From NCBI GenBank assembly GCA_029550925.1, contig JAKPGL010000038.1, positions 1-32,780 of the forward strand: a stretch of 32,780 bases of DNA. The letters are read 5' to 3'. Each line of letters begins with the position of its first letter. The stretch's first letter is position 1. The stretch comes from Planctomycetota bacterium. Its GTDB lineage: Bacteria; Planctomycetota; Planctomycetia; Pirellulales; Thermoguttaceae. Made by a program: the position numbers and the translations under genes. The notes under the pieces were generated by a model, which was not told the origin of the DNA, ran no database searches, and saw only the letters and a program-made list of their open reading frames with translations. Shown one piece after another: positions 9,588 through 32,780 of this stretch.

Positions 9588-9777
9588 GTAACATTTTAGC
9601 CGAATGCAAAAGAGTTTTATTTTAGAGCGAAATTTACCCAGGATTGTCACTGCCGCTCTAGCGGGAATCCAGAAAACAAAACCTCTTGCAACACCTGGAT
9701 TCCCGCCTGTGCGGGGACAAGCCTGGACTGCTGCTTGCGCAGGAATGACAAAGTACTGCACTCGGCTGAAATGTTAC
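9588..9777. repeat. Family 2 palindromic element, copy 2a (190 bp)
   Basis: Begins GTAACATTTTAGCCGAATGC and ends with the near-exact inverse of it (two mismatches in 21). Inside are further inverted segments (GGGAATCCAG / CTGGATTCCC). It starts 81 bp upstream of rnpA and ends 6 bp after the dnaJ-type stop codon. No convincing target duplication was seen. Confidence 0.85.
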
Positions 9778-18698: not shown

Positions 18699-18893
18699 GT
18701 AACATGTCAGCCGAATGCAAAGGAGGTTTATTTTAGGGCGAAATTTCCCCAGGATTGTCATTCTCGCGAAAGCTCTCCATCCAGGGTCCTATGAGGCGGC
18801 TACTTTGTTATTCCTCCCAAGCAGAGGCTGCAAGAAGCCTAGATTCCCGCTTTCGCTGGGATGACAAGGTACTGCATTCGGCTAAAATGTTAC
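18699..18893. repeat. Family 2 palindromic element, copy 2b (195 bp)
   Basis: Starts GTAACATGTCAGCCGAATGC and ends GCATTCGGCTAAAATGTTAC. It is flanked by a perfect 8-bp direct repeat GGATTTTT (18691-18698 and 18894-18901), which is direct evidence of transposition. Confidence 0.9.
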
Positions 18894-20732: not shown

Positions 20733-20859
20733 CTGGAGTTTTGCAAATTTGGGATTTCCACCGATCCTGTACACTAATCGACCTTTAAAAATCTCGGAAT
20801 TTTTGAGGGACCTGTTCAGTGTACGAACACCTGAACAAGTCCATTTTGCAAAACTTTAG
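20733..20859. repeat. Family 1 palindromic element, copy A (127 bp)
   Basis: CTGGAGTTTTGCAAA start and TTTTGCAAAACTTTAG end, with a central stem around the AAAATCTCGGAATTTTTGAGG region. Flanked by TTGGTAA (20726-20732) and TTAGTAA (20860-20866), a likely decayed 7-bp target duplication. It lies in the leader of the rightward gene pair; 20582-20732 holds no gene. Confidence 0.85.
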
Positions 20860-20917: not shown

Positions 20918-22018
20918 ATGATAAACACCGAACAAAAGTTACAGGAATGGCGAAAAGCCTGTGAACCTTTGCGGGAGAAGTTGCTGGATGCCATTGTGGA
21001 AGAATATGCAAATAAACTGGGAACTTCTCCAGACCCCAGCGAATCTGTCATTCAAGACGCCGAATATGCTGTGGCCCGACTGATCGAAAGCAAAATCGAC
21101 AACCAATGGGTAGAAGCAATTTACGGCGGTCCCCTGCCAAACTCTGAGTTTGCCGAATCTGTCAAATGGGCCGTTCGGAAACACTGTCCTCTGCCGAAAC
21201 TATCAGATCTGTTGCTCTATGAGGAGCGACTCCCCCTATGTTGGATTGTGGTTTGGGGAATTTTCGGCTGTTTATTGGGAATGCTGGTCTTGGATTTTCT
21301 GGTAAGAGTAGCATTGGGGGAGCCGATTACGGGACTTTTTTTGGGCGCCTTGGTGGGACCTGTAATTGGAATATTGGTGGTATGGCATGCGGCATATCAT
21401 GATTGGGTACGGCGCATTATCCAAACGACTTTGGGGGTAGCAGTAGTCGTTGAGATTTTAAACTTGGCGAAGGATTTCTCCTTCCGAAAAATCATCAGCA
21501 CCGCTAAAAGAGTTTGGAGCTATACCCAAATATATACGCCTCTCAAAAGGATCGGGCTCTATATACTTCTAATAATTATTTTGTTGTCCCGGGTTCGCTT
21601 AGAGCGGAAGTTAGCGAAGGATCGCTCACTCGTAGCGGTTCGGAGTGTGATGATGCAGTGGTTTGATGTTGCTATATTGACCATAGGGATATTGGTAGAA
21701 ACACAAAAGGGAAAAACACAAACACCTTCTTGGGAAGATCTGTTAGGAGAGATCGCCCAGAAGTTGACAGAGCTCCGAAGACTTCCGCCAGAAGATTTAC
21801 CAGAGGGGATCGAAGAAGTCATCGCAGCATTTACACAAAGGGGAATTACGGTCGATGAGCCAGATACATTTGTTTGGCAAACCGAGTCTTATGAGAAATA
21901 TGAGACATTTGGAGAAGTAGAACCAGGAGATCGGGTAATCGTAGAACGTTCGCCAGTAATTCGTGAGGGAAACGTAATTAAAAAAGGTCTCGTTCGTAAA
22001 GATCGTAAAAGGAGTTAA
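20918..22018 (+). CDS. Three-TM protein of unknown family, partner of the Hsp70-like gene
   Basis: 366 residues. A soluble helical N-terminus (1-100) is followed by TM segments at about 107-130, 135-157 and 211-224, then a helical cytosolic part (230-310) and a compact beta-type end (315-366) with VEPGDRVIVERSPVIREGN and a basic tail. I do not recognise the family. The C-terminal small beta unit directly upstream of an Hsp70-like gene raises the idea of a GrpE-like exchange factor or membrane adaptor, but no GrpE signature can be asserted. ATG 20918 has a modest AGAAGAGA site. Its stop is 2 bp before the next start, so the two are surely co-translated. Composition is AT-richer than the left half of the window. 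Confidence 0.8.
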   Translation: MINTEQKLQEWRKACEPLREKLLDAIVEEYANKLGTSPDPSESVIQDAEYAVARLIESKIDNQWVEAIYGGPLPNSEFAESVKWAVRKHCPLPKLSDLLLYEERLPLCWIVVWGIFGCLLGMLVLDFLVRVALGEPITGLFLGALVGPVIGILVVWHAAYHDWVRRIIQTTLGVAVVVEILNLAKDFSFRKIISTAKRVWSYTQIYTPLKRIGLYILLIIILLSRVRLERKLAKDRSLVAVRSVMMQWFDVAILTIGILVETQKGKTQTPSWEDLLGEIAQKLTELRRLPPEDLPEGIEEVIAAFTQRGITVDEPDTFVWQTESYEKYETFGEVEPGDRVIVERSPVIREGNVIKKGLVRKDRKRS

Positions 22019-22020
22019 CC

Positions 22021-24120
22021 ATGCCGGACGATACAGTATTAGGCATCGATTTTGGGACAACAAATTCTTATTACTCCATTTGTTCCTTGGAATCACTTTC
22101 CCCTCGGGGAATAGATCTTGGAACCGGCCGAGATGGATTGGCCACGGCTATTTTATATCGAAAAGGAAAACGTTCACTCATAGGAGATCAGGCTCTCCAC
22201 GAATATGGCGAGGCGACCGAGGCAGAAAGAAAAGAATACCAATATAAACTACATACTCAATTTAAACCAGAACTTGGGAGAAGTGAAGAGGCAAGACGAA
22301 TAACTCAGGATTTTCTGAGAGTTGTTTTAGAAGAGTGTCGTACTCGACATTTACATATTGACCCGAAACAGTATCGGGTCATTTTTGGCATTCCTAGCGA
22401 AGCGGAGAAGGATTATCGTGAGGCCCTTTCCGAGACGGCCCGCCGGGCAGATTATGGAACCATCAACATGCTCGAAGAGCCTATTGGAGCTCTGGTAGAT
22501 CATATATTCCACGAGGATATTTCTGTTCGTGATGCACAAAAGGGTATTTTACTGATTGACTTTGGGGGAGGCACCTGCGATTTTGCCTTCCTCCTTCGCG
22601 GACGGGTCCTCCATTCTTGGGGAGACATGAATTTGGGAGGTCGCCTTTTCGACGACCTTTTCTTCCAATGGTTTCTAGATCAAAATCCCAATGCTCTACC
22701 ACAAATGCAGAAAAACGGCGACGAATTCTATGTCCATTTTTACGTATGTCGACAGATCAAAGAAGATTTTTCGAATGCCATGGCAAGGGACAGAAACGAA
22801 CCGGTGCGGTGCAAAATGGTGGTTACCCACCAAGGGAGTTATGGTTTCCTGAAAAACATGACCTGGGATGAATTCCTCCATAGAGCCAAACATTATTCTC
22901 CGTCGGAAACGTTTCGACGATACCTCGTCGAGTTAGGGGTCAAGGATTCCCCTTTCTATCAGAGCCACGGCCCTGTTGATCTTCTGGCTTGGTTTCGGGA
23001 TTGCTTAAAGGAAGGATTACAAAAACACAACCGGAACAAAAGTGACATTGAGGTTGTGATTCTTGCGGGCGGGAGCAGTTTATGGCCATTTGTTCCGGAA
23101 ATCGTAAAAGAAGTCCTGGGGATTGAAGAGAGAGGAATTATGCGAGCGCTGCGCCCTTATGTGGCCATTGGGGAAGGCATCGCCTTGCTGCCGGGACTGA
23201 TAAGTAGATTACAAATAGAGGCCGATAAGCTTTCTCAAGAAAAGAATGAATTTTCAGAAAATCGCCGCCGAGAATTTCAGAATCTTCTGGATGAGACCGT
23301 TCAACAGATAAGCCGAGACGCTATTTATGATTTTTTCGATGATCGGGTTAAGGTTATATGTGCAGACTTCCGGAAATATGGGGGTTCTCGAGAAGAGTTT
23401 GAAAAACGTGTCTCCAGTGCTTGGGATTCTTTTCAGCCAAAGTTGAAGCAAATTGCTGAAGAACGATTAGCCAAGTTGCTGGCAGTATTCTTTGAGCGAT
23501 ATATGGAACTTTTTACAGAATGGTTCCAAAAACATAAAGTTATTCCTTCCACGGACAAATTGTCCGTAAGTAAAGAAGAAATAGGAAAAATTCCATATCC
23601 GGGCCCCATTCTGAATGAAGATTTTGGTATAGGATGCTTATTACTGAAGTTTTGCAAATTTGGGATTTCCCCCGATCTTGTACACTACCGACCCTCAAAA
23701 ATCACGGGATTTTTGAGGGTCTTGTTCAGTGTACGAACACCTGAACAAGCCCATTTTGCAAAACTCCTGTTATTAGGCGGCCTTGGATGGGCCTTGGGAT
23801 GGTATCCTGGATGGTATCTTGGATGGTATCTTGGAGGAACGATAGGAGGAATAGCGGGGGCTGTGATAGGACTGCTTATAGGAAGTGCGCTTACCGGGGA
23901 GAGCACGGCAAAACTTTCTCCCGAGAAATGGAAGAAAATACTTGAGAAACTTGATCGTTTTCGGACGGAGGCCGAAGGAAAGCTCGCGGAAGAGCTGAGG
24001 GAACGGTTGACAAAGTTTCGCGAAGAGGTCCAACGAGCAATTGTAAGCCGGATTGACGAGGAGCTCGACGCAATTAAGAAATTTGTGACGCATTTACAGC
24101 AAGCTCTGGCAACCAGCTAG
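22021..24120 (+). CDS. Membrane Hsp70-like ATPase with an in-frame repeat insertion
   Basis: 699 residues. The actin/Hsp70 ATPase fold is intact: phosphate-1 loop LGIDFGTTNS (7-16), phosphate-2 loop LLIDFGGGTCDFAF (177-190) and adenosine motif VVILAGGSSLWPF (345-357). The canonical beta substrate-binding domain is absent. It is replaced by helical coiled-coil (395-505), a Gly/Trp-rich hydrophobic membrane hairpin (585-625, with GWYPGWYLGWYL from a 12-bp tandem repeat) and a charged coiled-coil tail (632-699). Residues 542-583 are the translation of a family 1 element (23644-23769), with TTATTA on both sides. Removing element and duplication joins DFGIGCLL directly to LGGLGWALG. ATG 22021 follows AAAGGAG. 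It is probably a membrane-tethered regulator or assembly ATPase, not a housekeeping DnaK. Confidence 0.88.
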   Translation: MPDDTVLGIDFGTTNSYYSICSLESLSPRGIDLGTGRDGLATAILYRKGKRSLIGDQALHEYGEATEAERKEYQYKLHTQFKPELGRSEEARRITQDFLRVVLEECRTRHLHIDPKQYRVIFGIPSEAEKDYREALSETARRADYGTINMLEEPIGALVDHIFHEDISVRDAQKGILLIDFGGGTCDFAFLLRGRVLHSWGDMNLGGRLFDDLFFQWFLDQNPNALPQMQKNGDEFYVHFYVCRQIKEDFSNAMARDRNEPVRCKMVVTHQGSYGFLKNMTWDEFLHRAKHYSPSETFRRYLVELGVKDSPFYQSHGPVDLLAWFRDCLKEGLQKHNRNKSDIEVVILAGGSSLWPFVPEIVKEVLGIEERGIMRALRPYVAIGEGIALLPGLISRLQIEADKLSQEKNEFSENRRREFQNLLDETVQQISRDAIYDFFDDRVKVICADFRKYGGSREEFEKRVSSAWDSFQPKLKQIAEERLAKLLAVFFERYMELFTEWFQKHKVIPSTDKLSVSKEEIGKIPYPGPILNEDFGIGCLLLKFCKFGISPDLVHYRPSKITGFLRVLFSVRTPEQAHFAKLLLLGGLGWALGWYPGWYLGWYLGGTIGGIAGAVIGLLIGSALTGESTAKLSPEKWKKILEKLDRFRTEAEGKLAEELRERLTKFREEVQRAIVSRIDEELDAIKKFVTHLQQALATS
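23644..23769. repeat. Family 1 palindromic element, copy B, inside the Hsp70-like CDS (126 bp)
   Basis: CTGAAGTTTTGCAAA start, GCAAAACTCCTG end, central stem CCCTCAAAAATC/GATTTTTGAGGG. Perfect 6-bp target duplication TTATTA (23638-23643, 23770-23775). 126 + 6 = 132 bp = 44 codons, so the reading frame is kept and there is no stop. Confidence 0.93.
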
Positions 24121-24161: not shown

Positions 24162-24317
24162 GTAACATTTTAGCCGAATGCAGTACTTTGTCACTGCTAC
24201 GCAAGCAGACCCCCAGGTCTTTCAAGAGGTTTTGTTTTCTGGATTCGCGCTACAGCGGGAATGACAACGCCGGGTAAATTCCGCCTTAAAATAAGCCACC
24301 TTTGCATTCGGCTGTAC
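24162..24317. repeat. Family 2 palindromic element, copy 2c (156 bp)
   Basis: Starts GTAACATTTTAGCCGAATGC; the far end GCATTCGGCTGTAC is shortened. It is inverted relative to copy 2a and fills the gap between the two converging gene pairs, where it could act as a two-way transcription stop. Confidence 0.8.
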
Positions 24318-24328
24318 AAATATCGGAA

Positions 24329-26332
24329 TTATTTGACGGGCTTTTCCTCGAGCCACTGAAGACATTCCAGGATCTTTTGGGCGAATAGCTCGGTATCGGG
24401 AGATTGGGAAGCCATTTGGGCAAGCTCTTCTAGGGATTTGGCACCCCCGAAACCGAAAAGCCATTCTCTAGCAACTATTTTGGCCACTTTGGTACTGGTA
24501 GTAAGAGTGATTTTAAAATACTGGGCAGAACGTTCTGCGCAGCGGGTCCACCAGGAAAAGTTATTGGTTAATTGGGCGGTGTGCCGAAGCACCTGAGGGG
24601 AAGATTCCAATATATTCCCGGCTCCTCGGGCGGCCAACTGCCCAAGTTCTTGGGCGGCTTCTTGCCCGAGTTGTTTCCCAAACCGTTTGGAAGTTTGTTC
24701 GCTTATTTCCTCAATGATTTCTTTGCCGGTCTTTTTCCCCGCCCCTTTGAACCCAAATTTCAGGCCCGGGAGATCGGTAACAGTAAAAACCACGTCTACT
24801 ATACCGAAAATCAATTCCCCCCAAGTAGGCGTATATCCCTTGGACATCACCCAAAGCAACTGGTAGGCATCATATCCAGGAATACATTGTACGGCGAGGC
24901 TCGGAGGCCGTTCGAATTCTTTCAGCTCATCCAGGCCGCGTTCTTCCAGACGGCCCAGGGCTTGAGTTAGGTTATGGCTGTTCTTCATCGCATAAAAAAC
25001 CACCCGATGGTCGAGTTTCAAGAGAAGTTCATGAAATCGGTGAGAAAGAGGATGAAGCAAGTGTTGGGTATAGGAACTTGCAGCCTTGGTCTTATATCGC
25101 GCCATCATGGCAAGCATTTGAAGGGTGAGGGCCAGCTCTTGATCGCCGATTTGGGCGGCTCGCCGGACGGCCTCGAAAGCCTTTCCGGTTTTCTGGGGGA
25201 ACTGATCGGCATGGTATCCGTCGATCAGCAGCGAAGGCAACGGAACATCTACGGAGTTAGCCGGATCCACTGATACCGCCAGGCATCGGGCGATCAAGTC
25301 GGCGCGGGGATCATATTCTACAAGGAAACGGATACTATGTTCATCTGAGGTTAATAGGCCATACCAAGTATCTCGAACCAGGGTGGGCGATTCTGAGGTT
25401 TCCGGGCAATTGCGAGCTTTCTCTGCCACGGTCTGCAGCACCTGCCAAGCCTTTTCAAGTTTTCCTTCCTGTTGGAGTTTTCGCAGATCTTCTTGGTTGC
25501 GGGAAAGAGCTTCTAAAAACACAGGCAGTTCCATGGGCGGTGTTTGATCCACCCATTCGGGAAATTGTTTTGCCAATAGAAGGCCGTCCAATCCACGACA
25601 TTCAATCCACCCTTTGGCCCTTTCGCCGATGTCTAGGATCGCTTCCGTAACCTCTTGGACTCCATGGGACCCTTTCGCTAAATGGAGCGGTAACAAACAC
25701 GCCACGGTGATCTCCGGGTACCATTTCAAGCTCCGCTCCACTTTTTCCAGCAGGAGAGGATTTGGGCTTTTGGGATCTCCGTAGGCTACGACTAAAAACG
25801 GCAACATGCATGGAGATTGATGTCCAAGGGTTTTTGTTTGCTTCGGCAATGCTTCGATTCGGTCAAGAAATTCGGGCAGTCTGCCTCGGGCGGCCAACTG
25901 TTTCAGATAGGGGCGTGCCGAAACCAGCAACCTGACGGCGGTCTGGCCGCCCAGTCGCTTGGCTAATTGGTGAAACGTATCGGGATATTCCCGCATGACT
26001 GTCACCGCCTCATCTCCTAAAGCCAGCAAGGCTTCTGCTGCCCAATCGCCCTGCTCTTTGACGATATTGACTGCTGTCCAGCCATACTCTTTGGCCAACC
26101 AATCCAGCTTTTTCTCTTTGTCTTCTGGATTCCAACTGGTTAACAACTGTTCGAGCCGCTTTCTGGCTGGATTCGTATCTTCTGGGCCCTTTGTGGCCTG
26201 GTTCGTCGGAGGAGAGGGATGAGAACCTCCCGAATCAGAGTCGGGGTCCTTAGGGGAGTTATTTTGGGAGAAGAAAAATGCCGCTATCAGCACCCCCATG
26301 ACTGCGACTACTATAATGTATCTTATGTTCAT
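24329..26332 (-). CDS. Membrane-anchored helical-repeat protein of unknown function
   Basis: 667 residues. One N-terminal TM/signal anchor (about 4-22: RYIIVVAVMGVLIAAFFF) is followed by a Ser/Pro/Asp-rich linker and then almost all-helical sequence with HEAT/ARM-like pairs (for example WAAEALLALGDEAVTVMREY). Near residues 500-560 is a Gly/Lys-rich amphipathic stretch (GFKGAGKKTGKEIIEEISE) as seen before membrane-active or pore-type helices, but I draw no function from it. ATG 26332 is certain: AGGAGGTG lies just upstream. The frame extends to 26398 only because it reads through a family 1 element. It lies downstream of the giant GTPase gene on the same strand, 352 bp of repeats apart. Confidence 0.8.
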   Translation of the reverse strand: MNIRYIIVVAVMGVLIAAFFFSQNNSPKDPDSDSGGSHPSPPTNQATKGPEDTNPARKRLEQLLTSWNPEDKEKKLDWLAKEYGWTAVNIVKEQGDWAAEALLALGDEAVTVMREYPDTFHQLAKRLGGQTAVRLLVSARPYLKQLAARGRLPEFLDRIEALPKQTKTLGHQSPCMLPFLVVAYGDPKSPNPLLLEKVERSLKWYPEITVACLLPLHLAKGSHGVQEVTEAILDIGERAKGWIECRGLDGLLLAKQFPEWVDQTPPMELPVFLEALSRNQEDLRKLQQEGKLEKAWQVLQTVAEKARNCPETSESPTLVRDTWYGLLTSDEHSIRFLVEYDPRADLIARCLAVSVDPANSVDVPLPSLLIDGYHADQFPQKTGKAFEAVRRAAQIGDQELALTLQMLAMMARYKTKAASSYTQHLLHPLSHRFHELLLKLDHRVVFYAMKNSHNLTQALGRLEERGLDELKEFERPPSLAVQCIPGYDAYQLLWVMSKGYTPTWGELIFGIVDVVFTVTDLPGLKFGFKGAGKKTGKEIIEEISEQTSKRFGKQLGQEAAQELGQLAARGAGNILESSPQVLRHTAQLTNNFSWWTRCAERSAQYFKITLTTSTKVAKIVAREWLFGFGGAKSLEELAQMASQSPDTELFAQKILECLQWLEEKPVK

Positions 26333-26349
26333 AAGGCACCTCCTGTTTT

Positions 26350-26669
26350 GTAACATCTGGAGTTTTGCAAATTTGGGATTTCCCCCGATCTTGTACACTA
26401 CCGACCCTCAAAAATCACGGGATTTTTGAGGGACCTGTTCCGTGTACGAACACCTGAACAAGCCCATTTTGCAAAACTCCAGATTTTAGCCGCATGTAAA
26501 AGAGTCTTATTTTAAGGCGAAATTTGGCCCCGTTGTCATCCCCGCGAAAGCCCCCGATCCGGGCAATGAGGTTGGTTGGAAATCTGGACTGCCGTTTGCG
26601 CAGGAATGACAATTTGCAACCGGTCTGACACCTTTGAGCATCCTGCCGCTTCATTTGGCTAACATATTA
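26350..26669. repeat. Family 2 element, copy 2d, interrupted by a family 1 element
   Basis: GTAACAT at 26350-26356 continues as ATTTTAGCCGCATG at 26483 after family 1 copy C. The right end (CATTTGGCTAACATATTA, to about 26669) is diverged. The insertion shows that copy C came after copy 2d. Confidence 0.75.
26357..26482. repeat. Family 1 palindromic element, copy C (126 bp)
   Basis: CTGGAGTTTTGCAAA start and TTTTGCAAAACTCCAG end, with the same internal stem as copy B. Only AT is shared on both sides, so the target duplication is not clean. It lies just upstream of the RBS of the 667-residue protein. Confidence 0.9.
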
Positions 26670-26684: not shown

Positions 26685-29600
26685 TTATTCTCCGGGTAGG
26701 GTTGGCGGTGGGGTGATCTTGGGGCTAATCCACCGAATTTGGGCTTCCGACCAGTTGTGCCCCATCCAGTTCGTATTGCTGGCATCGATCTTCTGAGGAG
26801 AAGTACAAATTTTTATAAGACTGTATTTATCCGAAATGGAAATTTTCCCAACATAGTGACCTTTTTTTCCCACTTGTTCATCCCAGATATCAATCGTAAC
26901 TTGGGTGCCCGGGCTCCATGATAACTTTATCGCCTCTTGGAGTGCCACAGTGCCCTCGCCTTCGATCTCATAGGTGCCAGGAATAATATACTCCTTTTGC
27001 CCTACCTGAACTCGGAAGGCAAAGTCAAAATCTAAGTCCCAAGGTGGCCAGATGTTATTCCTAGGGATCCCCTTGCCTTCGATGTGAGTGATTTCGTACT
27101 CCCGAACACCTTCAAACTGTTGGAACCACTTCAATAGTTGTCTTGCGGCGTTCCACCGTTTGTTGGAAATTTTTTGGTAATAGGGAGTTTTAGGGTCAGT
27201 ATAGCGTTTTAGAGCGGTTTCTAAGTTTTCTAATTGCTGGTTGGCTTCGAACTTCCGCAGAGTTTGATATTCATGGTCTTCCCATCGGGTCAGGAGGTCA
27301 TCCTGAAGGTTCTTGGTTTTGGCTCGCTGCTGATCTTTAAGCTTAGGATGTTGTAGCACCTTTTGTAATCGTTTGTAGAGTTCCTCGAAAGAGGCTGATT
27401 CTTTTTTTATCTCGGATTCTACCTGGGCCAATTCATTTTCCACTTCGGCTTCTGCAATTTTTTGTTCGACGGCCGAGAGGCGACTGCTAAGTTTTTCCAG
27501 TTGTCTCCATGGCCCTAGCTCGTCCTGGAGGGTTTCGAAGATTTTTTTCGCTTCCGTATAGCGTTTGTTGGTTAATGCCTCTGCGATCTTTTGCTCTAAG
27601 GAGCGGAAATACTCTTCGATTTTTCGGTCGGCACGGCTACGTAAATCGTCCTGATACTCTTGCGGGGTCGTAATGTCGTTGGCCTTTTGGTAAAGGGTGT
27701 GGAAAGCTTCTTTCGGATTTTCGTTCAATTGGCTTTCAAAATGGCTCCAGTCAAGGTCTACAGCTCGGTCGATCAGTTTTTTCCGACGTTTTTCCCAATC
27801 CCATTCGGAGAGTTTTTTCAGTTGATTATGGATTTCGGGCGAAAGAAGGCTCGCCCATTGGACGGCAGAAAGAAACCGTTGCTCGGTTTCGAAAACAGAG
27901 AGTTTCATTTCAATCCACTGATGGAGCAGCGGCGGCGACAAGTTCTGGATTTTTCCCCCAAAGCGATCCAGTAGGTCATGGGCTTCCGCAAATTTCTTTT
28001 CCTTAACGAACTGTCCCGCTTGTTGGATGGCTTGCTCTACTTGGCGCAAAAGGAGTGATTGCTCCCAAGACGACAGTTTCTCTTTGATTGTCTGGGCCAT
28101 TGTATTTTGATGGGTTTTGGCCCAAGTTAATTCTCTTTCCAAAGAGTCTAGGTCCGCTCCGGGTGTTTGAAGCCGATCTTGAAAATCGTTCGCCCACGTT
28201 CCCCATGCTTCGTCCCATTCCTTGCCCCACCATTCCGGATCACGTAGGTTGGCCGGAATGGCTAAAAGGTGTTCGATGAGCAATGACCATTTTTTCTGTC
28301 CACGGAGTACTCGGCTGTAGCTCTGGTACCATTCCTTGGCCTGTGGGACGGCACACTGTGGAATCCATTGCCGGCATCGGTCCAGGATAGTCTCTGCCTC
28401 GGCAAATTTCCCGGCGGCCACTTGTTTGGTGGCTTCCTGGACAGAGATCTCTACAAAACGATCGGCAATTCCCCTTTGGAACTTTTCTATTCTGGAGGGC
28501 CAATCGTCCCAAAAAACGTTTCGTTCGAATTCTGAAAGCAGCTCATATACCTTGGTAGGTTCGCCTTCTTTAAGCAATATGTCTATTTGAGGCTGCAGGT
28601 AGGTGAACCATTTCTGGGCGATTTCCTGCCGTCGCTCTGCCTTCTGACGTTCCCAGTCTGTTTTGTCCTGTCGAGAGAGTTGTGTGGGAAATTGCACACG
28701 TTGGACAACTTCTTCCAGGGCTTCTTTAAACTTATTCTGTTGAAGAGCGTCTTCGGCTTTTTTGTTGGCCTCGGACCAAACATAGTCGGCATGTCCGCGT
28801 GCTACCGTTTCACGGAGGTTATCTATTTCCTGCCGATATGGAGCGCACTCCGGGGGAGGCAGCAGCGAGAGAGTGGTGTCGATGGTGTTAATCGTTCTAT
28901 AGGCTTCCTCATATTGACGTCCGCCATATAACGCGTCGATTTCCCTTCGCAAATGGGCGGTCAGGTCCCGACAGATATTGGTCAGAGGTCTTTTCACTTC
29001 TTCCCACAGGCGACGAACTTCTTCCAGATAAGATTCCGGCGGCGTGGGAAGATTTCTATATTCGCTAAACCATTCTTGGGCTGCTTGCCGACGCTCCTCC
29101 AGCGAAAGCGCCTGGGAACCCAATTGATCCTCATACGGTTTCATCCGCTGATAGATTGCCAGGACGTTGAGGGCAACCTCGGCTTGAGGGATATAATCGG
29201 TAGCAACCCACACCGAAGATTTCCAGCGTTCCAAAGCCCCCACCATTTCGGAGGCCGAATCAGGGGATGCACGCACCGTCGTATGAGCAGTTTGGAGGAT
29301 CGCCTGGAAGTTGTTAAGTTCCCAAGTGCGACAAAATTTGCTCCCTAATAAAGCAAGCCCTCCGAGCACCAGGAGTGTAATACCTAGTGCCCAACGTGCC
29401 CGCCGGCGGAGTACTTTGGCATTTCGTTGCACACAGGGCGCCCCGGCAAAACGGCTTTGGGTTTGTGCCACTACTCGGCCTGGGGAAAACCATTTCCATA
29501 TCCAAGGAAAATACCACCATACACTTCTGGGAAGCTGTTGGGCAGTCCACATCCAGCCTTCCGGGATGCTATTGAACATCCAGCGAAATACCTGGAGGAT

Positions 29601-31748
29601 GTCCAGTTGCTTGGGATCGACCGACTCCAGGTCTAACTGAATTTCCGGTTTGGGTCCCTTTTGACCGTCGGCTTGCCACTGCTGGACCTTTTGCCGATAT
29701 TCCACCACTTGATGGCCCAACTGCACTCCCAACTGGCTGACGGCGAAGATGCGCAACTGGGGTCGGCTGTCCAGGGAAAACCAGGGAATCAGCCGTTGAT
29801 ACCAGGACCGCTTTGGCCGTTTCGATTCCGCCAATCTGGTTTGCAATGAGTCGAACACTCCGGGGAAGAGCAGTTTAAACAGCCATTCGCCCAGTCGCGT
29901 CGATTCTTCCACAGACAGGCTTGGTTGCTGAGCAAGTTGGATCATGGTCTGTAATTCGGGATCCTCCGCTTTGCCATGCTGCTGAGCTAACTGACGAAGC
30001 AACTCCGGCGTCCAGGCGTCGCGTTTGGTCATCAAGATGGCCACGGATCGAGAAAAGGACTTGCCCAGATCGAGCCGATCTGCGGCAAACATATTGGTAA
30101 TGGCCTCTTGTTGGGCTCGTAACCTGGCTTTTAGTTCTCCGTTTTCCAAATCCGTCGGATCAATGATGATGAAAAGCCCGTCCACGTCTTTCAGCGCAGC
30201 GGCCAAATCTTTTCGTTTGTCGGGTAGATTAGCCCATTCGCCAGGATAATCTACCAAGTTCAGACGCATTTCTAACTTGCCGGCTCGTTCTGCACCTTCT
30301 GCTTGGCCGCCGTCGTGTGGGGAAGGGGCATCCGGGTTTTCCCAGAAAAATGGCCAGGTAAGATCCAGTTCGATGTTTCGTTCTTCTTTGGTGGGCTGGC
30401 AGCGGGTTACTTCCTCTTCCATTTGTCGAAGCACAGTGGAATCCGGAGCATCCCGATGCGGACGAAGACTGGCGCCGGGAATCCCCCGATGGAGATGCTT
30501 GGTAAGCATGACCGTAAATGTGGTCTTGCCGACCCGTTGCAGCCCGAGAAGCCCGATCTTCAACTCCCCTTCCGACACTCTCCGGGGAAGATATCTTTTC
30601 GGAGCGGCCTTTCCCGGAGCCGGTTGTTCCACCTTTCTTTTCGCCCATTGGCCGATGGTGCCTTGTCGTTTGGCTAACAACGGCAGGAGCTTCCATAGTA
30701 GCCAGTTAACAACTCGCAAAACCCAAGGCGCCACCATAAGAATAACAAGAAAAAGTAAAACCACAAGAACGATTAGTTGTATAGCAAACGCTACCACACC
30801 CTGCCAGGCCAAAGGAAGCAATGGTGCCAAGGCAGCGGCCAAAGCGGCGCCAACCCGCCTAGTGAACATCCAAACCGCGCCTGGTATACCAAGTACCAGC
30901 TTCCATCCCCTCCTGAAACGGTTCCTGGGTGGAATAGTTTCTGGGGGTAATTTTCGGATACGAGCAATCAGTTCCTCAAAATGTTTGGTCGGTTGTCCCA
31001 ATTCATCGAAATATTTCACCGGATTCTTCCATAACTCATCCAGGTGAGGCTTTAATTCGGGGTCCTGCCAGGCCCGTTTCAATTCCTCCAGGTGTTCCGA
31101 GATCCGAGAGACTGTCTTTGTGTCGGCTTTCCTAGCGAAGGAAACAAACTCCGGCCCAATCTCCCGGGTTCCTCGAACGACGGTTTCCAGGGCTTGGTCG
31201 GTTTGCATTTGCCGACAGACGTATAACACATCCGGCCCGCATTTTTGCACGGCCTCGGCGATATCGTCGAACGATCGGCCCAATTTGCCCCATCGTTGAA
31301 TCAACTCACCGGATTGTTCCACCAGTCCCAGCAGCGCACCGCGGGAAACATCGTCTAACTCATGGATAGACTTTCGCAGGGATTCCGAAATGGGAAACCC
31401 CATTTTGCCCAATCGCGCAAGTACTTCATCGGTAGCGCTTGGACGGTGAAGTTCCTTGCCTACCTGGGCCAACGCTTCATCGGTATGGTTTTGGAGAGTA
31501 TTCAACAGCTTCCCCATCTTGGTAGAGACTTCGTCGGACTGTTTTACGAGGGATTCGGATAGGGATTTTAATAAACTTCGGAACCCTGCGGCCTCCGCCG
31601 CGGCCCCCCATAGCACGAACCAAAACAGCATGATCATGCCAACACACAAACCGAGCGAACGATTTCCGGAAGAACCCTTGCCCCTGGGTTTGATTAGGAA
31701 AACGCTCTTCCCTATGGACAGACATTGCTGGGACGCTGTGGTCTTCAT
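26685..31748 (-). CDS. Giant membrane GTPase with exported repeat region
   Basis: 1687 residues. In order: signal peptide or first TM (about 33-54, ending AEAAG), an exported helical region (55-290), a strongly hydrophobic membrane region (about 301-348), a cytosolic G domain (about 395-680) with Walker A GLQRVGKT (402-409), switch II DYPGE (500-504) and base-specificity box TKRD (574-577), another TM (787-803), and about 750 residues of helical, TPR-like repeats (units such as NKFKEALEEV, GKFAEAETIL, KKFAEAHDLL, KRYTEAKKIF). The last 130 residues are beta-rich (DLDFDFAFRVQVG, TQVTIDIWDEQVG). ATG 31748 is chosen because AAAGGA and AAAGG precede it and the signal peptide follows; the frame extends to 31796. 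Layout resembles TssM/IcmF; homology is not shown. The gene is first in its pair. Confidence 0.85.
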   Translation of the reverse strand: MKTTASQQCLSIGKSVFLIKPRGKGSSGNRSLGLCVGMIMLFWFVLWGAAAEAAGFRSLLKSLSESLVKQSDEVSTKMGKLLNTLQNHTDEALAQVGKELHRPSATDEVLARLGKMGFPISESLRKSIHELDDVSRGALLGLVEQSGELIQRWGKLGRSFDDIAEAVQKCGPDVLYVCRQMQTDQALETVVRGTREIGPEFVSFARKADTKTVSRISEHLEELKRAWQDPELKPHLDELWKNPVKYFDELGQPTKHFEELIARIRKLPPETIPPRNRFRRGWKLVLGIPGAVWMFTRRVGAALAAALAPLLPLAWQGVVAFAIQLIVLVVLLFLVILMVAPWVLRVVNWLLWKLLPLLAKRQGTIGQWAKRKVEQPAPGKAAPKRYLPRRVSEGELKIGLLGLQRVGKTTFTVMLTKHLHRGIPGASLRPHRDAPDSTVLRQMEEEVTRCQPTKEERNIELDLTWPFFWENPDAPSPHDGGQAEGAERAGKLEMRLNLVDYPGEWANLPDKRKDLAAALKDVDGLFIIIDPTDLENGELKARLRAQQEAITNMFAADRLDLGKSFSRSVAILMTKRDAWTPELLRQLAQQHGKAEDPELQTMIQLAQQPSLSVEESTRLGEWLFKLLFPGVFDSLQTRLAESKRPKRSWYQRLIPWFSLDSRPQLRIFAVSQLGVQLGHQVVEYRQKVQQWQADGQKGPKPEIQLDLESVDPKQLDILQVFRWMFNSIPEGWMWTAQQLPRSVWWYFPWIWKWFSPGRVVAQTQSRFAGAPCVQRNAKVLRRRARWALGITLLVLGGLALLGSKFCRTWELNNFQAILQTAHTTVRASPDSASEMVGALERWKSSVWVATDYIPQAEVALNVLAIYQRMKPYEDQLGSQALSLEERRQAAQEWFSEYRNLPTPPESYLEEVRRLWEEVKRPLTNICRDLTAHLRREIDALYGGRQYEEAYRTINTIDTTLSLLPPPECAPYRQEIDNLRETVARGHADYVWSEANKKAEDALQQNKFKEALEEVVQRVQFPTQLSRQDKTDWERQKAERRQEIAQKWFTYLQPQIDILLKEGEPTKVYELLSEFERNVFWDDWPSRIEKFQRGIADRFVEISVQEATKQVAAGKFAEAETILDRCRQWIPQCAVPQAKEWYQSYSRVLRGQKKWSLLIEHLLAIPANLRDPEWWGKEWDEAWGTWANDFQDRLQTPGADLDSLERELTWAKTHQNTMAQTIKEKLSSWEQSLLLRQVEQAIQQAGQFVKEKKFAEAHDLLDRFGGKIQNLSPPLLHQWIEMKLSVFETEQRFLSAVQWASLLSPEIHNQLKKLSEWDWEKRRKKLIDRAVDLDWSHFESQLNENPKEAFHTLYQKANDITTPQEYQDDLRSRADRKIEEYFRSLEQKIAEALTNKRYTEAKKIFETLQDELGPWRQLEKLSSRLSAVEQKIAEAEVENELAQVESEIKKESASFEELYKRLQKVLQHPKLKDQQRAKTKNLQDDLLTRWEDHEYQTLRKFEANQQLENLETALKRYTDPKTPYYQKISNKRWNAARQLLKWFQQFEGVREYEITHIEGKGIPRNNIWPPWDLDFDFAFRVQVGQKEYIIPGTYEIEGEGTVALQEAIKLSWSPGTQVTIDIWDEQVGKKGHYVGKISISDKYSLIKICTSPQKIDASNTNWMGHNWSEAQIRWISPKITPPPTLPGE

Positions 31749-31916
31749 GCCTTTTGTCCTTTCTGGGCGCAAAACCGATTTATAAAAGAAAAGCACTTTC
31801 TGTATACCAGCTACGGATTATTTTAGTTTCCCCTACTGAGGCACCAACACACATACAATATATGGTGGTTACTGTTCCTCAAACTACTATTCGTAGTCTC
31901 TGGTTCTAAAAATTTC

Positions 31917-32105
31917 GTAACATTTTAGCCGAATGAAGGCCCACAACCTTTTCTGGGCAAATCCCCACCATGTCCCTGCCGCTCTAGCGGCAGTCCAGGC
32001 TTGTTCCCACACAAGCGGGAATCTAGCCGGCGAAACAGGCAACAACTGGACACCTGCCTTCGCGGGGCTGGCAAGAAAGATCACTCCATTCCGCTGAAAT
32101 GTTAC
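31917..32105. repeat. Family 2 palindromic element, copy 2e (189 bp)
   Basis: GTAACATTTTAGCCGAATG start and CCGCTGAAATGTTAC end. Flanked by AAAATTTC (31909-31916) and AAAATTTT (32106-32113), an 8-bp target duplication with one change. It lies 169 bp upstream of the giant GTPase start; no clear promoter was found in the gap. Confidence 0.88.
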
Positions 32106-32362: not shown

Positions 32363-32488
32363 CTGGAGTTTTGCAAAATGGGCTTGTTCAGGTGCTTGTG
32401 CACTGAACAGCCCTCTCAAAAATCCCGAAATTTTTGAGGGCCGGTAGTGTACGAGATGGGTCGAAATCTCAAATTTGCAAAACTCCAG
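32363..32488. repeat. Family 1 palindromic element, copy D (126 bp, reverse orientation)
   Basis: CTGGAGTTTTGCAAAATGGG start and GCAAAACTCCAG end. Perfect 6-bp duplication TTACAA (32357-32362, 32489-32494), whose left copy contains the end of family 2 copy 2f, so D landed after 2f. Confidence 0.92.
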
Positions 32489-32494
32489 TTACAA

Positions 32495-32780
32495 GAGACT
32501 TTTTGGTAATACGTTAGGTGTTTCAGTGGTTTTGGCGGTAGGGGAGGTAGTTTACCTGTTTTTACGTATTCGGAGAGGGTTTGGACAACCGTAGCCACGG
32601 GATCGGGGCCGGGGTTGTTTCAGGGTGCGATAGATGCTCATGAACTGGAGTTTTGCAAAATGGGCTAGTTCAGGTGTTCGTACACAGAACAGGTCCCTCA
32701 AAAATCCTGTGATTTTTGAGGGTCGGTAGTGTACAAGTTGGTGGAAGTCCCAAATTTGCAACACTCCAGATGAAAACCAC
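32495..32780 (-). pseudogene. Decayed transposase C-terminus (IS66-like), runs off the window
   Basis: Reading left from the window edge and skipping element E gives VVFMSIYRTLKQ, then after a one-base shift ATVVQTLSEYVKTGKLPPLPPKP. This resembles the end of IS66-type transposases (a run such as SIYRTLK, a helical stretch and LPPLP). It is interrupted by family 1 copy E (130 bp added with duplication, not a multiple of three) and by a frameshift, so it is dead. The family is recalled, not searched. Confidence 0.5.
32645..32769. repeat. Family 1 palindromic element, copy E (125 bp, reverse orientation)
   Basis: CTGGAGTTTTGCAAAATGGG start and TTGCAACACTCCAG end. 5-bp duplication ATGAA (32640-32644, 32770-32774). 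It lies inside the transposase remnant. Confidence 0.88.

Follow-up and report, generated by a model that had tools for sequence, protein, structure and literature searches.

Small palindromic elements fused in frame to protein-coding genes have been described from Rickettsia, enterobacteria, Neisseria and Coxiella (PMC2229807; PMC10969869; PMC2759123; PMC5896051). The Rickettsia palindromic elements (RPE) are 105–146 bp long, have inverted ends and lie in frame inside protein genes (PMC2229807; PMC10969869); R. conorii carries 44 of them, almost half in ORFs (PMC10969869). A Rickettsia guanylate kinase with such an element is translated and active, with an altered substrate affinity (PMC2229807). 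The ERIC or RU-1 elements of enterobacteria (127 bp) are mobile and mainly intergenic, with in-frame fusions reported (PMC2759123; PMC2229807), and the Correia elements include a 107-bp form with open frames that is fused in genes (PMC2229807). The Coxiella element QMITE2 occurs chiefly between genes or in 3′ untranslated regions, is occasionally located in frame within an ORF, and has direct repeats of 7–11 nt (PMC5896051). Other palindromic repeats have been reported from planctomycetes (PMC3733652), and searches of the open-licence literature listed no in-frame MITE family comparable to ours for this bacterial group.

Here we describe a new MITE family from the genome of a Planctomycetota bacterium, one copy of which (copy B) lies in frame within an Hsp70-like gene, a kind of protein insertion that is already known for such elements from a few other bacteria. 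The window, i.e. the whole stretch of DNA analysed around this gene, comprises 32,780 nucleotides. At 126 bp, the element is nearly equal in size to ERIC/RU-1 and likewise mobile and mainly intergenic, but belongs to another host phylum; Correia elements and QMITE2, by their descriptions, have other lengths and other hosts. In outcome, the element resembles RPE, for which the target duplication is given as unknown (PMC2229807), whereas that of the present family is plain.

The inserted element

The element is a near-palindrome with 15-bp terminal inverted repeats, flanked by two exact copies of TTATTA. Its features and those of the host gene are as follows (window coordinates):

22021–24120, plus strand: Hsp70-like gene, 699 aa (Pfam HSP70, E 2.6e-10 for the whole protein; nucleotide-site motifs; LeoB profile)
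23638–23643, no strand: left target-site duplication TTATTA, exact match to the right copy
23644–23769, plus strand: MITE copy B, 126 bp, read in the sole open frame of the family consensus
23644–23658, plus strand: left terminal inverted repeat (family consensus CTGGAGTTTTGCAAA; copy B has CTGAAGTTTTGCAAA)
23690–23721, plus strand: central hairpin, a 14-bp perfect stem with a 4-base loop
23755–23769, minus strand: right terminal inverted repeat
23770–23775, no strand: right target-site duplication TTATTA, exact match to the left copy

Because a codon boundary falls at 23638, the element plus one TTATTA corresponds exactly to codons 540–583 of the 699-aa ORF, i.e. to 44 stop-free codons added in frame. 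An initial sequence-only reading had proposed just this, and its coordinates, lengths and frame for the element and the duplication all proved right.

As RNA, the strand of copy B folds with −60.2 kcal/mol (z = −7.1), and none of 200 shuffles folds as well. Such a strong hairpin in the transcript might speak for removal of the segment at the RNA level, which the same reading had offered as one option. However, a single tRNA is the sole Rfam match in the window at the gathering threshold, with no known intron or ribozyme family among the matches, and the segment is bounded by transposon ends and a target duplication. In addition, 126 bp is below the size of any self-splicing intron that we know of. 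Splicing is thus not supported, and we consider it almost certainly wrong. A search for a terminator in or near the element found none.

The Hsp70-like gene and the insertion site

The gene would encode an actin-like ATPase part, followed by a glycine-rich hydrophobic stretch and coiled-coil-like parts, the latter two named by eye. We aligned the protein with 11 homologs, one in G019, seven in genus g9 and three in genus g22, setting aside four matches from G085 and G087 as well as weaker ones. It retains three nucleotide-site motifs in this alignment, and a LeoB profile matches residues 604–696, downstream of the insertion and in the same frame. As the homologs are distant (34–40% identity), the empty site is visible as protein and not as sister-strain DNA. 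A search of wider genome contigs with peptide patterns confirmed no Hsp70 relatives.

Since the aligner spreads 18–27 homolog residues over the 44 element columns, the alignment gap alone is no clean test of an insertion, and we instead compared the spacing between flanking anchors. This spacing is 82 residues in the window protein with the segment and 38 without it, compared with 39 residues in nine of the 11 homologs, 30 in another and 45 in the last, so that all 11 aligned homologs lack room for the segment. Together with the inverted ends and the exact TTATTA duplication, this bears out the proposal of a mobile palindromic element inserted in frame, as far as the DNA and protein sequences can tell. 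The further statement that the protein joins smoothly without the segment holds for the spacing (38 versus 39 residues), but removal leaves the similarity scores for the C-terminal part nearly as they were: without the segment, the best BLAST score is 30.0 bits, versus 26.9 bits with it, and for some homologs the score becomes lower.

These data also bear on the possibility that short reads joined unrelated flanks through a repeat during assembly. For three contigs (C10, C42 and C172), an end lies no more than 1 base away from a scored copy, and for a fourth (C223) it lies inside a short element fragment, which would fit such a joining. Nevertheless, the 6-bp duplication at copy B is exact, the reading frame continues beyond it into the LeoB match, and the spacing without the insert is within one residue of that in nine of the 11 homologs; we therefore regard an artefact as highly improbable.

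Alternatively, the gene might already be non-functional and decaying, in which case the insert would be a passenger. The hydrophobic stretch follows the insert directly and, compared with the three homologs profiled, is reduced in length and strength whether the insert is kept or removed; the codon score after the insert is weak (8.6 bits over 116 codons). On the other hand, all 699 codons are free of stops, the three nucleotide-site motifs are retained, and the hydropathy peak is identical with and without the insert, making decay an unlikely explanation overall. Given the weakness of the hydrophobic stretch relative to the homologs, its earlier label as a 'membrane hairpin' rests on the alignment. 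There is also a slim chance that the 44-residue transposon peptide was co-opted as a new linker or membrane-proximal segment before the hydrophobic stretch and has been kept by selection in this lineage.

Some further features of the locus may be recorded. After the insert, a short tandem repeat (window 23790–23835) encodes GWYPGWYLGWYLGG; none of the 11 aligned homologs has these ten additional residues. The gene is neighboured by genes at window 20918–22018, 24329–26398 and 26685–31796; a neighbouring protein has tblastn matches beside five of the 11 homologs (three of them over 43 residues only), and two large neighbouring proteins are encoded on the minus strand, one with a Double-GTPase 2 match.

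The MITE family in the genome

A first search of the genome with copy B listed 81 matches, counting both strands. Among 87 candidates, 40 were scored and all proved to be element copies, the 39 besides copy B at 87–98% identity to it. We then built a family profile from 27 of the first 30 copies (three did not fit the trimming pattern) and used it to score the stretches around the 74 places in the genome with the right-half element pattern, together with the window. This yielded 79 copies or fragments, three of them weak (22–27 bits). Besides copy B, the window contains four, all outside gene calls:

20733–20859, plus strand: family copy, 127 bp
26357–26482, plus strand: family copy, inside which the stop-to-stop frame of a minus-strand gene opens
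32363–32488, minus strand: family copy
32645–32769, minus strand: family copy

Sixty-eight copies are near full length, 41 of them exactly 126 bp long, and the 126-bp copies differ from each other by a mean of 7.4 bases. Exact duplications of 5–7 bp surround 43 of the 68, compared with a chance level of 1.0 on average and 6 at most (2,000 trials, right flanks shuffled among copies). Thirty of these duplications are 6 bp long, with an A+T content of 77%. At the other 25 near-full copies, an exact duplication of 3–10 bp is absent, owing to decay, to recombination among copies or to the assembly. The exact 15-bp end occurs 103 times in the genome, versus zero times for the pattern read backwards. 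As the elements are short and multi-copy, too short for a transposase gene, and have terminal inverted repeats and a target-site duplication of narrow size range, we read the family as a MITE, i.e. a non-autonomous terminal-inverted-repeat transposon, that multiplied in this lineage. Its ends are presumably unlike those of ERIC.

The inventory may lack a few, perhaps ten, decayed copies. Neither the left-half pattern (60 places, all in stretches already analysed) nor a divergent copy as query (40 of 90 candidates scored) led to new copies or places. With up to two mismatches, 147 of 172 end sites fall in the analysed stretches, seven of the 147 outside scored copies; the 25 sites beyond these stretches include some chance matches (four in the control) and one lone end at C149:624. 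This lone end (L102) lies beside, and is joined to, a second dispersed repeat family (GTAACATTTTAGCCGAATGCAG...), which occurs in the window at 9598–9777, 18708–18893, 24162–24314 and 31971–32039. At least three MITE copies (window 26357, L145 3107 and L156) are located at the GTAACATTTTAGCCGAATGCAG repeat motif.

Position of the copies relative to genes

For gene calls, we used a codon-usage caller trained on 166 long ORFs. By these calls, one of the 79 copies lies inside a CDS, while 69% of the 408,461 bases examined are called coding, a figure that is not the coding share of the genome, as the stretches were chosen around copies. A looser ORF listing places other copies inside open frames, yet for none of them are the coding scores of the two sides both positive; L169 comes nearest, with −6.9 to its left and 10.7 to its right.

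The copies are also unevenly placed between genes. Neighbouring 3′ gene ends lie within 15 bp of a copy in 8 of 72 cases and within 50 bp in 21 of 72, compared with 0 of 70 and 5 of 70 for 5′ ends. The copies thus avoid gene starts and interiors and occur just past stop codons, a placement that selection and target choice would each produce. The eight copies within 15 bp of a stop codon are L130, L140, L141, L149, L153, L159, L161 and L174, and a role of the element at transcript 3′ ends is possible. Seven copies (L131, L137, L145, L158, L167, L182 and window 26357) contain the beginning of a neighbouring gene's stop-to-stop frame; the starts of these genes are called outside the element, and an element-borne start is possible.

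Is the element selected to be translated?

The sequence-only reading had suggested that the element might be selected to be translatable and spread as a harmless protein segment. Several observations fit this idea. The canonical length plus duplication is divisible by three. That the frame used by the Hsp70-like gene is open in other copies too applies to 37 of the 41 copies of exactly 126 bp. It also applies to 21 of the 25 copies that keep the frame by virtue of their length and exact duplication, but to only 43 of the 68 near-full copies.

However, the family consensus is open in one frame out of six, the one read in the Hsp70-like gene, and this is unremarkable, given that 79% of 5,000 shuffled sequences likewise have an open frame. 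Likewise, the inserted length is divisible by three in 25 of the 43 copies with an exact duplication, and the frame is lost in the other 18. The substitutions point in the same direction: over the three codon positions, the changes number 80, 47 and 44 when all are counted in the 41 copies of 126 bp, and 32, 26 and 25 when only distinct changes in the other 40 are counted; of these distinct changes, 23 of 83 are synonymous (28%), compared with 24% of all possible single changes. The substitutions thus reveal no coding constraint. Finally, a single copy of the 79 falls in a CDS by our gene calls, which leaves no group of genic insertions for counting the bias towards one frame that the suggestion implies. 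Selection for translatability is therefore not supported, and we hold it to be very doubtful.

Distribution and candidate partners

The family was seen in this genome only: none of 59 relatives, including two of the same genus, has an element match (up to 14 candidates scored per genome), and an exact 24-base element pattern found no match in wider genomic and viral contigs, a collection that may exclude the own or a near genome. The exact 15-base end CTGGAGTTTTGCAAA, by contrast, is found in 8 of 118 other genomes of the same taxonomic family, with 1–5 sites each versus 103 in the present genome. Two of these genomes have elements that share this end: in G115 there are two (L188 and L199), each about 165 bp long and with a second end that can be recognised, and in G067 one of 71 bp. 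As judged by eye, they differ from the present family in that the interior is not shared.

A search for an autonomous partner covered one transposase family, DDE_Tnp_1, and found two genes in the genome, at C34 and C195. The gene at C34 (locus L128, 3200–4740), IS5-like as assigned by eye, directly adjoins a fragment of the family, yet has different, imperfect 36-nt ends of its own, and the one at C195 has no family end within three mismatches across its 2,607-base locus. Five sites where an exact end continues unlike the family interior all fell inside copies already scored. In the relatives, the end loci that were read (L193–L197 in part, with L207–L210 left out) show short elements or single ends only, with no transposase between paired ends.

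Discussion

The segment in the Hsp70-like protein is very probably a copy of a non-autonomous terminal-inverted-repeat transposon that inserted into a tolerant linker in the only frame that its sequence leaves open. We propose that a transposase acting in trans, presumably from an element not found in the assembly, would recognise the CTGGAGTTTTGCAAA ends and insert the 126-bp unit at an AT-rich site, duplicating mostly 6 bp (5–7). As 126 and 6 add up to 132, a multiple of three, a canonical insertion preserves the reading frame. Copy B landed, on our reading by luck, in the sole permissive orientation and phase, in the linker before the glycine-rich hydrophobic stretch, leaving the gene open and 44 codons longer. 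These would be translated as part of the protein, which probably tolerates them, and the insertion may have been retained because the site is a linker. Other genic insertions may have broken their genes and been lost, or the transposase may avoid genes; either would explain why nearly all copies examined are intergenic.

The comparison with RPE, made by description, fits the outcome of one event in one gene, but does not extend to their habit of frequent genic presence: almost half of the R. conorii elements lie in ORFs (PMC10969869), compared with one of 79 copies here.

The family described here thus adds a well-marked case of in-frame protein insertion. It also illustrates that selection for translation does not follow from an open frame combined with a length that is a multiple of three, since this family has both and, by our count, is almost never genic.
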